Assembly: GCA_005880075.1 (NCBI GenBank)
Contig: VBJT01000122.1
Span: 1 to 33,025, forward strand
Length of the DNA stretch: 33,025 nt
Reading direction: 5' to 3'
Source of the DNA: Chloroflexota bacterium
GTDB lineage: Bacteria; Chloroflexota; Dehalococcoidia; SM23-28-2; RBG-16-64-32
In this document: positions 17,852-28,838 of the stretch, piece by piece
Layout of the letters: every line of letters begins with the position of its first letter
How positions within the stretch are numbered: the first letter of the stretch is position 1
Position numbers and translations under genes: made by a program
Notes under the pieces: model-generated
What the model was told of the DNA's origin: nothing
Seen by the model: the letters and a program-made list of their open reading frames with translations, nothing else
Databases searched by the model: none

Positions 17852-18071
17852 CGTATTCGCGCACGGCCGATGCCATAATTCGCGATGAAGGACGTTGACC
17901 CGAAAGTTTCCGTGTTATGAGTCGCGCGAGAAACAGCACAGCTAAGTTCGAATATAGAAACGTGTAACAGGGTGGCCGGAGGGGCGTCTATTGTTCATCC
18001 CAAGAGTTGAGGGTTCGCAAGAACCGTCAGTAGCCCGTGTCTTAGACACGGTGGATGACGAGGGCCGGAAT

Positions 18072-18692
18072 ATGACAACGATGCGCGTGGCGATGGCAGA
18101 AGCCTTGAAACAGCAACCGTCAGTCAAGGCCGAACAAGCGCAGACTGCGACCGAAGTGCCGCAGACGGAAGCCGGCACGAAGCCGGTGGAATTCACAGAC
18201 CTCTACCACCAGTACTTCCCCAAGGTCTTCGCCTACGTATACGGCCGGGTGCAAGACAAGGAAATCTCTCTCGATATCGTCTCGGACGTATTCGAGAAGG
18301 CATTCATCAAGATGCGGTCGTTACGCTCGCCGGACTCCTTCGGGTCATGGCTGTTCACGATCGCGCGGAATGAAGTTTCATCGCACTGGCGAAAGACAAA
18401 GCCCGCCGCCCGAGCTGCCCAGGAAGCCGCCTGGGAAACCGAGCTGCACTCGCAGCCGCGGGGCCCGGAAGAAACCGTGCTGCACAAAGAGAGGCTCGCC
18501 TCACTTTCGCAGCTCGTGCGCCAGTTGCCTCGGCGGGAGCAGGAAATCATCGCTCTGAAGTTCGATGCCGAGCTCACGAACCGTGAGATCGCGAATGTGC
18601 TGAGCACAAGCGAAGTGAACGTGCGGGTCACGGTCTTTCGCGCGCTGCGCAAGCTGCGGGAGCGCCTCCAGACCAGCGGCGACCGTACATGA
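18072..18692 (+). CDS. ECF-type sigma-70 family RNA polymerase sigma factor
   Basis: FTDLYHQYFPKVFAYVYGRVQDKEISLDIVSDVFEKAFIKMRSLRSPDSFGSWLFTIARNEVSSHWRK (region 2) and LSQLVRQLPRREQEIIALKFDAELTNREIANVLSTSEVNVRVTVFRALRKLRERL (region 4). ATG 18072 or TTG 17991. Confidence 0.92.
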   Translation: MTTMRVAMAEALKQQPSVKAEQAQTATEVPQTEAGTKPVEFTDLYHQYFPKVFAYVYGRVQDKEISLDIVSDVFEKAFIKMRSLRSPDSFGSWLFTIARNEVSSHWRKTKPAARAAQEAAWETELHSQPRGPEETVLHKERLASLSQLVRQLPRREQEIIALKFDAELTNREIANVLSTSEVNVRVTVFRALRKLRERLQTSGDRT

Positions 18693-19939
18693 ACGAAGAG
18701 GAGCGGGCCGAATGGCTGGCCCGCGCCATCGACGATCTGCTTAACAAGGATCGTTCACGCCCCCAAGAACCCGCACCACCAAAATTCGAGCGACAGGAAC
18801 TCAACGCGCTGCTGCGCATCGCGAACGCGCGCGCTGAGCAGGGCGATGCGTCGATACAGACGGGCGTCCAGTACGAAGGCGCGGTCTGGCGACGAGTCCT
18901 CGAACGGCTGGACAGGCGCCGCACTTCGCGCGAGGTCCGGCCCCTCGACGCCAGCGAGCCGGCAAACCCGGAAGAAGCGATGGCTGCGAGGGCTCTCGAG
19001 GAAATGGAAATCGATGAGCTACGGGAAATCGCCCGCCTGCGCAGGATGATGGCCGAGCGGGCCGCCTCGATCGGAGAGTCGCAGCGGGACCGTGTCTGGG
19101 AGAGAGTTCAGTCACGTATTCAGGCGCAGCCCCGGAAGAGATGGCCGTTTACATTCTTTGTCCCGAGGACAAACAAGGCGCCTCTAGCCGGGGGCACGGA
19201 TGATCGCGCCGCTTCGGCAAGCCATTCGCTTCGTGAAGGGGAAAGGCGAGCGGCAGAGCGAAGCACGGAAGGTGCATACGCGGAAGAGGCCCATCCCGGC
19301 TTGGCCGGCGGCTGGCAGAAGACGGCAGCCGCGGCTGCGCTGGTCGTGTTGATCGCTGTCGCCCTTGCGCCCTTGCCGGTGACCGGCTTCGCCGAGCATC
19401 CCATTGCAGGCGTCCTGCGTTCCATCGGCGAGCACCTCGGCGTCAGAGAAGCCGGCGCGCCTCCCGCACCGCCACCCGTCACAGCCGTGGTCCGGGGCAG
19501 CGAGATTACGGCCGCCGAAGCGTCGGACCGGCTGGGCGTGCGGGTGGGAGTCCCGGTCACGCCCCCGTCGGGATTCGAGCTGACGTCGGCACGGTTCTTC
19601 GACCAGGCGCTCACTGCGGACGAGGGCGGTACATACGCGCTCACGTATTCGCGGGCAGGTGGATCGAGCGTGGTCATCTACCAGGAACGCGCGTCCGGAA
19701 AAGAGTTGAGCGTTGAGGGCGGCTCCGCGACTGACGTTGCTCTTTCGGACGGGACCGCGGGGACGTACGTCGAGGGGATGTGGCAGCCGGTGGACGGCAA
19801 GCTGGTCTGGAGCGCGGGCGGCGCGCAGACTCTCGTCTTCGAGCGCGGCGGGCTGCGGACGACAATCCAGTACACGGGCCCGCAGGCCGAAGCGCCCTCG
19901 CTGTTCGCGCTCGCGGACAGCATGTCATCCGCCCCCTGA
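18689..19939 (+). CDS. Putative membrane-spanning anti-sigma factor with extracytoplasmic C-terminal domain
   Basis: ATGA overlap with the sigma gene; single TM helix TAAAAALVVLIAVALAPLPV; C-terminal DUF4367-like region (GVRVGVPVTPPSGFELTSARFFDQAL...YALTYSRAGGSSVVIYQERASG...TYVEGMWQPVDGKLVWSAGGAQTLVFERGGLRTTIQYTG). Confidence 0.75.
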   Translation: MNEEERAEWLARAIDDLLNKDRSRPQEPAPPKFERQELNALLRIANARAEQGDASIQTGVQYEGAVWRRVLERLDRRRTSREVRPLDASEPANPEEAMAARALEEMEIDELREIARLRRMMAERAASIGESQRDRVWERVQSRIQAQPRKRWPFTFFVPRTNKAPLAGGTDDRAASASHSLREGERRAAERSTEGAYAEEAHPGLAGGWQKTAAAAALVVLIAVALAPLPVTGFAEHPIAGVLRSIGEHLGVREAGAPPAPPPVTAVVRGSEITAAEASDRLGVRVGVPVTPPSGFELTSARFFDQALTADEGGTYALTYSRAGGSSVVIYQERASGKELSVEGGSATDVALSDGTAGTYVEGMWQPVDGKLVWSAGGAQTLVFERGGLRTTIQYTGPQAEAPSLFALADSMSSAP

Positions 19940-20544: not shown

Positions 20545-20724
20545 TTATTCGATGTCTTCACGCGCGCGGCGTTCGCGCATCATCTCGTAGAGGAGGTTCT
20601 CTACAATCATGAGGAGGAGGAGGACCTGGCGCTGCTGGCGGCGGGACATGCGCCCCAGCATCTGGAGTAGTTCAGGGTCAATCTTTTCGGCGAGAGCGAG
20701 GCGGTCGTCCGGCAGGTCGGCCAT
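20545..20724 (-). CDS. 59-aa small protein sharing the C-terminal module of the two upstream XRE regulators
   Basis: MADLPDDRLALAEKIDPELLQMLGRMSRRQQRQVLLLLMIVENLLYEMMRERRARED IE* (last residues EDIE). TAATG overlap with the stop of the upstream XRE gene. Missing from the ORF track because it is under 60 aa. Confidence 0.7.
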   Translation of the reverse strand: MADLPDDRLALAEKIDPELLQMLGRMSRRQQRQVLLLLMIVENLLYEMMRERRAREDIE

Positions 20725-21206
20725 TAGCGACGGGCCCGCCTGAGCTCCGGATGTCCCTTCGAGACGGTCGTTACCGGCGAACGCTTCAGGGCGAGCGGGC
20801 CGGTGGTCACGCCGTCCGGGGTCGCCCAGTCAGGCCCGTTGGCGGTTACGGAGTAGCCGTTGAGCACTTGCTCCATACCCTGGAGGATGAGGAGCAAGCG
20901 GCGCTGGCGGTCCCGCGGCATTTTGCCGAGATAGCCAAGCAGGCCGGCATCTACCGTCGATTCGTAGTCCTGGTAGACCTGGCGGAGCATGCGCACGGTC
21001 GGATAGCCCGCAGCTTCGAAGAGCTCATCGGGATCGATCTGCATCGCCTGAGCGACGCGCAGCAAGACAGCCGCCGAGGGGTTCTTCACCTCGCCGTTTT
21101 CGAGTTGCGAGAGGTAGCCCTGGCTCACCGAGGAGCCGCTGGCGAGCTGTCCCTGGGTGAGACCGAGCTCATCGCGTATTTGCCTGATCCTGTCTCCTAA
21201 TCGCAT
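20724..21206 (-). CDS. XRE-family HTH transcriptional regulator (paralogue 2)
   Basis: MRLGDRIRQIRDELGLTQGQLASGSSVSQGYLSQLENGEVKNPSAAVLLRVAQAMQIDPDELFEAAG (HTH_3) plus C-terminal VDAGLLGYLGKMPRDRQRRLLLILQGMEQVL. Confidence 0.9.
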   Translation of the reverse strand: MRLGDRIRQIRDELGLTQGQLASGSSVSQGYLSQLENGEVKNPSAAVLLRVAQAMQIDPDELFEAAGYPTVRMLRQVYQDYESTVDAGLLGYLGKMPRDRQRRLLLILQGMEQVLNGYSVTANGPDWATPDGVTTGPLALKRSPVTTVSKGHPELRRARR

Positions 21207-21317
21207 CTTGTCGCTCCGCCTAACTGAGAGTCGCAAAAATTGTCGATGCTCCTCGCCAGCTTGTCAATAATTCCTCTTGCCGCTGCCCCGAATCGATGGA
21301 CGGGGATCGGGTGCTCC

Positions 21318-21698
21318 CTAACTAGCGCTGGGCCTGGCGGCCGCTGTGGCTCCGCGCTCCATCCCCTTGAACAGCTTGAGCAGGCGTGCCTGCTGCTCTC
21401 TCGGAATTCGCGCCAGAAACGATAAGAGATCAGGGTCGACAGAGACCTCGTAGCGGCCCGCGTTCCCCTCCTCCTGCCCGATCTCCGCGTAGCCGGCCGC
21501 TTGCATGAGAACGCGGGGGTCGATATGGAGCGAGCGGGCCAGCCGAAAGATGACGGCCGCGCTCGGGTTCTGGACATCGTCGTTCTCGAGCTGCGATAGG
21601 TAGCCCTGGCTGAGCTCCGCCTGGGCAGCAAGCTGCGCCTGGCTCATACTGAGCTCGTCCCGAAGACCCCGGATTTTCTTTCCCAGCGACACCCGCAT
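21318..21698 (-). CDS. XRE-family HTH transcriptional regulator (paralogue 1)
   Basis: LGKKIRGLRDELSMSQAQLAAQAELSQGYLSQLENDDVQNPSAAVIFRLARSLHIDPRVLMQAAG plus C-terminal VDPDLLSFLARIPREQQARLLKLFKGMERG. Immediately downstream of tadC. Confidence 0.9.
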   Translation of the reverse strand: MRVSLGKKIRGLRDELSMSQAQLAAQAELSQGYLSQLENDDVQNPSAAVIFRLARSLHIDPRVLMQAAGYAEIGQEEGNAGRYEVSVDPDLLSFLARIPREQQARLLKLFKGMERGATAAARPSAS

Positions 21699-21704
21699 AT
21701 CTCC

Positions 21705-22589
21705 TTACGAGAGGGACTGAGCGATGCGGATGGCAGCCGGCCCGAGAATAACGAGCAGGAAAGCCGGGAAAATGAACAGCACGAGCGGGAAAAGCATCTT
21801 GATCGGCGCCTCGTGGGCAGACTTCTCGGCCCGCTGCCGGCGCTTGGTACGAAGCTGATCAGACTGCACGCGAAGCACCTGCGCGATGCCGACACCAAGC
21901 TGCTCGGCCTGAATGATCGAGGTGATGAACGTGGTGAGCTCCTCAACACCAATGCGCTGTTCCAGTTCGGTCATCGCCTCCCTACGCATCTTACCCATCG
22001 CGACGTCGCGCAACATGCGAGAAACAACGCGGGCGAGAGCGGCGTCCAGACCGAGGCCGGCCTCCACACAGGTGGTGATCAGGTCCATCGCGTCGGGCAT
22101 GGCCCGGATCACCAGCTTCTGACGGGCCTTTACTTTGCCCTTGAGCCAGATGCGCGGGAACACGAAGCCAAGGGCCGCGAACATTACAACAAAGAGCAGT
22201 TTCTGAATGAGCAGGCTGCCGGGAAGGACGACGAAGAAGACGAGGCCCAGTCCGGTAAACGTTGAGAAGAGTACCCCCCAGAAAGTGAGATACGTTTGAA
22301 GGGTCATAGGATGGCCCGCCATCATCAGCTGTTTCTGTATGTCGGACAAGACCGAAGCTGGAAGCACCGAACTGATGGTGCGGGAGAACCCTTCGATGGT
22401 CGGCCTGAGTACTCGCTCGCCGAAGGGAAGTTCCAGGTTTACCTCATCCTCTTCCATAGAGACCGCGCGAGTGCGAAAGTCCTGAATTCGGGATTCCATG
22501 CTGGTGCCGCGCTTAGCGCCGCCGAACATGGCGTAGACGATGGACATTATCGCCCCAAAGACAGATACAGCTGCGAATGCGATGATCAT
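21705..22589 (-). CDS. tadC: Tad pilus inner-membrane platform protein TadC (type II secretion F domain)
   Basis: T2SSF features: AMPDAMDLITTCVEAGLGLDAALARVVSRML...MGKMRREAMTELEQRIGVEELTTFITSIIQAEQLGVGIAQVLRVQSDQLRTKRRQRAEKSAHEAPIKMLFPLVLFIFPAFLLVILGPA. Confidence 0.93.
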   Translation of the reverse strand: MIIAFAAVSVFGAIMSIVYAMFGGAKRGTSMESRIQDFRTRAVSMEEDEVNLELPFGERVLRPTIEGFSRTISSVLPASVLSDIQKQLMMAGHPMTLQTYLTFWGVLFSTFTGLGLVFFVVLPGSLLIQKLLFVVMFAALGFVFPRIWLKGKVKARQKLVIRAMPDAMDLITTCVEAGLGLDAALARVVSRMLRDVAMGKMRREAMTELEQRIGVEELTTFITSIIQAEQLGVGIAQVLRVQSDQLRTKRRQRAEKSAHEAPIKMLFPLVLFIFPAFLLVILGPAAIRIAQSLS

Positions 22590-28023: not shown

Positions 28024-28206
28024 TTAGAGCGAGCCCGTGATGCTGGACAGGGTGCCCGCGATCGCCAGACCCAGGGCAGTCAGCGCGAGGATGCAAACGA
28101 CCGCGATGAGGGCCAGAAGCAGACCGTACTCGGCCAGCGCCTGTCCGTCCTCACGCTCGTGGCGCGACGCGAACCACACCAGGGCTTCGTTGATCTTGGA
28201 GAGCAT
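28024..28206 (-). CDS. flp: Flp/Fap pilin subunit (copy 1)
   Basis: MLSKINEALVWFASRHEREDGQALAEYGLLLALIAVVCILALTALGLAIAGTLSSITGSL; AAGGAGGAG ribosome binding site immediately upstream. Confidence 0.93.
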   Translation of the reverse strand: MLSKINEALVWFASRHEREDGQALAEYGLLLALIAVVCILALTALGLAIAGTLSSITGSL

Positions 28207-28381
28207 TCGTCTCCTCCTTTCCAAACTAATTGATCGCTTGGTTGAGAACCTTCTCCGCCAAGTTAGATGGGAGTGGTGGTTCGCCCGTTACACCTTATCC
28301 GCCCGGTTCACGAAGATTTCACCGTCGGCAGTGAGCGAGCGAGCGGCGTGTTTGCAGGGCGAGAGCCGGCAAATAAGAAGA

Positions 28382-28434: not shown

Positions 28435-28617
28435 TTAGAAAGCGCCGGTGATGCTGGACAGCGTGCCAGCGATCGCCAGACCCAGGGCGGTCAGCGCGAG
28501 GATGCAAACGACCGCGATGAGGGCCAGAAGCAGACCGTACTCGGCCAGCGCCTGTCCGTCCTCGCGCTCGACGCGCGTCGCGAGCCGCGTCAGAGTCTCG
28601 TTGATCTTGGAGAGCAT
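28435..28617 (-). CDS. flp: Flp/Fap pilin subunit (copy 2)
   Basis: MLSKINETLTRLATRVEREDGQALAEYGLLLALIAVVCILALTALGLAIAGTLSSITGAF: near-identical to copy 1 from DGQALAEYG onward. Confidence 0.93.
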   Translation of the reverse strand: MLSKINETLTRLATRVEREDGQALAEYGLLLALIAVVCILALTALGLAIAGTLSSITGAF

Positions 28618-28838
28618 TCGTCTCCTCCTTTCCAAAAAATTGATCGCTTGGTAAGGACCGTCTCCGTGAAGTTAGATGGGGTTGGCCGTACAGCCGTTAC
28701 AGCTTATGCACTCGGTAAACGAAGATTTCACCTTTGATTACTAAAGTCGGCGAGCGGTAAAGGAAGCGGCACAAGCAGCGGCTGGTTGGATTGCGACGAG
28801 CAACGTGAATTTCTGGCCGGTACCTGACTCTCTTACCT

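Follow-up and report, generated by a model that had tools for sequence, protein, structure and literature searches.

The DNA analyzed here, a stretch of 33,025 nucleotides from a Chloroflexota bacterium (the window), carries a Flp/Tad pilus locus of which tadC is the last machinery gene. Pfam matches were obtained for TadE, RcpC/CpaB, a CpaE-like ATPase, a T2SSE-family ATPase of the TadA/CpaF type and tadC, and a prepilin peptidase gene lies near the locus. The two Flp pilins have weak Pfam matches, under the curated cut-off; their genes (28024-28224 and 28435-28635, minus strand) are in tandem and nearly identical. On the minus strand, tadC is followed by two genes encoding Cro/C1-type XRE regulators (XRE1 and XRE2), each with an HTH_3 domain (E 6.6e-15 for XRE2), and then by a 59-aa ORF (Table 1). 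XRE1 starts 6 nt past the tadC stop, while the XRE2 stop and the start of the small gene overlap as TAATG. The original prediction, made from the window alone, held that the small ORF lacks an HTH and is coupled to XRE2 by this overlap; indeed, searches of Pfam, NCBIfam and PHROGs gave no HTH family match to the small protein, nor any other credible match.

Table 1. Features of the XRE regulators, the small gene and their surroundings in the window
Feature	Position	Strand	Basis
tadC (T2SSF family)	21705..22589	-	Pfam T2SSF E 7.6e-13, and synteny in relatives
XRE1, 126 aa, HTH regulator with C-terminal module	21318..21698	-	HTH_3 E 1.3e-11
C-terminal module of XRE1	21351..21452	-	A3 match E 2.5e-19 (row used in A3)
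Promoter-like site, sigma-70 type, TTGACA-N17-GACAAT, upstream of XRE2	21239..21267	-	
XRE2, 160 aa from ATG, HTH regulator with C-terminal module and variable tail	20724..21206	-	
C-terminal module of XRE2	20859..20966	-	A3 match E 1.4e-18 (row used in A3)
Small protein, 59 aa, HTH-less	20545..20724	-	Orthologues in 18 genomes, 69-97% identity, omega 0.14
Shared module within the small protein	20596..20685	-	A3 match E 3.3e-7; hhalign A3-A1 E 9e-13

The 59-aa ORF is a genuine gene. A protein search yielded relatives at 69-97% identity, and a small-protein profile (A1; 16 rows, mean column identity 82%) detected the gene in 18 of the 25 genomes of the order. No further genomes were added by this profile from a class sample of 393 genomes, which takes in all 25 genomes of the order, or from a phylum sample of 400. 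A contig scan of 84,980 species gave 17 loci, all of them in MAGs labelled Chloroflexi, Chloroflexota or Dehalococcoidia; that there are no relatives outside Chloroflexota is the outcome of this single pattern-based scan, and the genomes compared are mostly fragmented MAGs. Several genera of one family retain the gene, as do two other families, and 25 residues are invariant across 16 sequences. With an omega of 0.14, against 0.26 for XRE1 and 0.24 for XRE2, and a mean identity of 76%, against 62% and 65%, the small gene is under stronger purifying selection than either regulator. The host order consists of soil and groundwater Chloroflexota, and XRE1, XRE2 and the small gene (the unit) are known from this one order.

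Sequence comparison indicates that the small protein is homologous to the C-terminal module of the neighbouring XREs. A whole-genome search with A1 found both XRE C-termini in the window's genome (XRE1, 21372-21443, E 4.5e-5; XRE2, 20862-20957, E 1.3e-4), matches that are independent of those in Table 1, and in each genome the two XRE C-termini were the only other matches at E <= 0.001. Conversely, a profile made from the XRE modules only (A3) recovers the small ORF in 18/18 genomes, with E-values from 1.6e-6 to 5e-11 (3.3e-7 in the window's genome). Elsewhere in the class A3 gave only weak, partial matches (E 3e-4 or worse), and in the phylum sample one weak match besides the window's genome; neither profile had a convincing match outside the order. 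Alignment of the two profiles with hhalign gave an E-value of 9e-13, and the module of the small protein is 46-49% identical to those of the XREs, compared to 12-13% for shuffled modules. The common module had been proposed on the strength of three short strings, all of which are present, and the HMM search suggested at the time bears it out: the small ORF and the XRE C-termini find each other, and do so within the order. The checks named beforehand as able to overturn the proposal (a small ORF lacking homologues or coding conservation, or modules that do not align in related genomes) were all carried out, and none of them spoke against it.

A hydrophobic pattern is common to the XRE modules and the small protein, h...hh.hh..h in helix 1 and hh.hh..h in helix 2. 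For XRE2 and for the small protein alike, the module is predicted to fold as a hairpin of two helices. AlphaFold was applied to a readthrough of XRE2 and the small gene in a relative (L062): helices span residues 87-95 and 98-121 in the XRE2 module and 173-181 and 184-214 in the small part, and the stretch linking the two parts is disordered; the small protein modelled alone has helices at 5-13, 17-25 and 28-58 (pLDDT 84.8). These models are of single chains, and their input alignments are shallow (7 and 17 rows). As an in-frame TAG separates the two genes in only 7/18 genomes, the other spacings breaking the frame, a readthrough fusion was rejected as biology and used as a modelling device only. 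Foldseek found no matches in the PDB to the model of the small protein, and a PDB sequence search with this protein gave chance helical matches only. For the XRE2-small fusion model, DdrO, RghR, Stl and SinR were near, mainly through the HTH.

XRE1 and XRE2 form two groups in the tree, XRE2 being an orthologous group, and the topology points to a single old duplication (support 94/92; branches are long). They have in common the recognition segment SQGYL[SC]Q[LI]E, so they probably read similar sites. XRE1 lies 6-30 nt 3' of tadC in 18/18 loci. The promoter-like site before XRE2 is the sole match to its pattern in the window, with 0 in 100 shuffles, and a like site occupies the same place in 15/19 loci, genus g5 being without it. 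The small gene comes directly after XRE2 in all 18 genomes that have it, starting -1, 2, 3, 4, 5 or 14 nt from the XRE2 stop, and no separate promoter-like site was found before it in the window. Given this close linkage in every genome having the small gene, both genes are probably expressed from one mRNA.

A GTCAA-N8/9/10-TTGAC dyad lies across the -35 box of the XRE2 promoter-like site in eight loci of three lineages and is a possible operator. By eye, no clear dyad is visible at the XRE2 promoter in the window's genome (G000) or in G001, G005 and G008, and no regulatory site was identified before the flp or cpaB genes. A genome-wide dyad search for a regulon returned few sites per genome, and their targets were not coherent. 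In one relative (L131; G015 near 333428), a GTCAA-TTGACA dyad falls inside the frame of a SipW-like signal peptidase whose neighbours look, by eye, like TasA/CalY. Genes of the sipW/TasA type are SinR targets in Bacillus; we set this site aside as probably due to chance.

The unit is inherited together with this type of tad locus. The order cpaB-cpaE-tadA-tadB-tadC-XRE1-XRE2-small is conserved wherever contigs permit, and the recurrence of tadC-XRE1-XRE2-small in relatives is what the synteny survey proposed earlier was to look for. Sixteen genomes whose tadC exceeds 50% identity have the unit, and so do G001 and G023, in which contigs end close to tadC. It is absent where only a diverged tadC (<50%) exists (G007 and family f4), and absent from G002 and G016, both without a tadC match. 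Several genomes have a second tadC copy without the unit, among them the window's (G000:C211:52763-53641, 42% identical). G016 has a lone XRE with the module (L056:8106-8552), with no small gene and no tadC; by eye, it adjoins a gene for an RNA-recognition-motif-like protein. The original prediction of a three-gene cassette after tadC is correct as regards a conserved unit at the tad locus, but its strict form is only one version: in several relatives (L043, L046, L055, L057-L060) a DUF192 gene of about 120 aa stands between XRE1 and XRE2 (in G006 and G019, the two tested, the Pfam E-value is 8e-20 or lower). In the window, XRE1 and XRE2 are just 111 nt apart, which implies that the DUF192 gene was lost there or relocated. 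Beyond the unit, most relatives have a convergent ECF sigma factor gene with an anti-sigma-like gene, and also three convergent FAD/FeS oxidase genes that look like glcDEF. In the window, an ECF sigma factor (Sigma70_r2, r4) and an anti-sigma-like partner of 416 aa are encoded at 17991-19939 on the plus strand and run towards the cassette.

Since the small protein is little more than the part by which the regulators probably pair, its probable role is that of a built-in partner adjusting the XREs, as SinI does with SinR. We consider it somewhat probable that it serves the XRE regulators of the tad locus as a partner subunit without an HTH; by analogy, it would most likely pair with XRE2, perhaps with XRE1 too, and set the oligomeric state on pilus-locus operators. 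In the manner of SinR-SinI, the hairpins of different chains would come together as a four-helix bundle, in which the small protein could take the place of one XRE chain. Such a complex would have a single DNA-binding head, and its binding to an inverted-repeat operator would be poor or altered. Expression of XRE1 is probably tied to that of the pilus machinery, whereas a promoter of their own probably serves XRE2 and the small protein. Because the recognition helices are nearly the same, expression of XRE2 and of the pilus genes could be set by the amount of XRE1 relative to XRE2-small, and XRE1, being made with the machinery, would shift the balance and give feedback. The complete scheme would be a three-part Tad pilus switch, in which XRE1, made with the machinery, and XRE2, made from its own promoter, use the same DNA site while the HTH-less subunit decides which pairs form, with an origin separate from that of SinR/SinI; we offer it tentatively, as possible rather than probable.

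Alternatively, the small protein could be a SinI-like antirepressor that strips XRE2 or XRE1 off the DNA and thereby turns the pilus genes on. It is, like SinI (57 aa), an HTH-less module protein adjoining a regulator, and the mechanism is described (PMC3163267). Yet its gene is always directly behind XRE2, which makes separate induction of the SinI kind unlikely, and an extra control step would be required, for example proteolysis or competition by XRE1; we regard this reading as rather unlikely. Since the small protein would be made together with XRE2, we prefer to see in it a fixed partner setting the oligomeric state, rather than an antagonist that is induced. Of the roles first envisaged, that of the module as a pairing helix and the formation of heterodimers by the small protein are plausible. 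The dominant-negative role is less well supported, as linkage to XRE2 and a probable single mRNA fit an obligate subunit at least as well.

The small protein had also been described as consisting only of the module. The module is there, but so is a conserved C-terminal extension: residues 45-59, without counterpart in the XREs, have a mean pairwise identity of 75%, against 82% for the module. This tail may bind something else. One can envisage an adapter, docked on the XREs by the module and holding a second partner with its C-terminal helix, through which the regulators would read the state of the pilus; candidate partners are a Tad protein such as CpaE, the neighbouring ECF sigma/anti-sigma pair, or RNA polymerase. 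The additional hydrophobic positions of the small protein in helix 2, relative to the XRE modules, and the convergent sigma and anti-sigma-like genes next door in most relatives are consistent with such a role, but the tail could merely lengthen the helix bundle, and the adapter seems to us a somewhat doubtful proposition. It is quite improbable that the small protein serves the Tad machinery and not the XREs, with common ancestry only behind the likeness: the gene is found only with this tad type, but it is fixed to XRE2 and not to the tad genes, no signal or membrane segment is evident by eye, and core module positions are kept in common with both XREs. Finally, a decayed, functionless third XRE gene would account for the missing HTH, but is ruled out by the low omega, the invariant residues and the retention across genera and families given above.

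Returning to the partner subunit that we favour, the unit is a conserved and compact candidate Tad pilus regulator for one order. To our knowledge, no dedicated Tad pilus regulator has been described in Chloroflexota, and a literature search for one found none.

Among known systems, DdrO, a Deinococcus XRE repressor for which we know of no HTH-less partner, resembles the XREs in having an HTH and a C-terminal domain. In the structural search with the XRE2-small fusion model, its structures (PDB 6jq1, 6rnx) were among the top matches; the similarity lies mainly in the HTH, and TM-scores are about 0.3 by query and about 0.5 by target. DdrO is controlled by PprI/IrrE cleavage (PMC10904395).

Another likeness is that to SinR/SlrR with SinI/SlrA of Bacillus subtilis (PMC3163267, PMC4238804), a described system of like logic, although the original prediction recognised no described system of this layout. 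In both cases an XRE regulator with a C-terminal module, theirs a two-helix hook, is accompanied by a second XRE paralogue and by an HTH-less protein of similar size, about 57 aa for the SinI-type hook protein and 59 aa here. SinR and SinI interact through their two-helix hooks, which have conserved core residues in common (PMC3163267), and the Bacillus system controls a surface or biofilm trait (PMC3163267, PMC4238804); the unit here sits in a tad pilus locus, the pilus being a surface structure as well. The systems differ in that SinI is separately induced, whereas the small gene, downstream of and coupled to XRE2, is probably not under separate control. Membership of the SinR/SinI family (PF08671) was ruled out: the SinI hook profile was above cut-off in 0/25 genomes, with no match listed at any cassette gene, and hhalign to SinI and SinR gave probabilities below 1%. 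Where a hook would be expected, AlphaFold places two helices in XRE2 and in the small protein, but the Foldseek search with the small model had no PDB match. By analogy, the unit would work like SinR/SlrR/SinI without belonging to that family. If the small protein does pair with the XREs, HTH-less antagonists or partners derived from a regulator's own pairing module also arose outside Bacillus, from a different module, and the SinI principle would be general and easy to search for.
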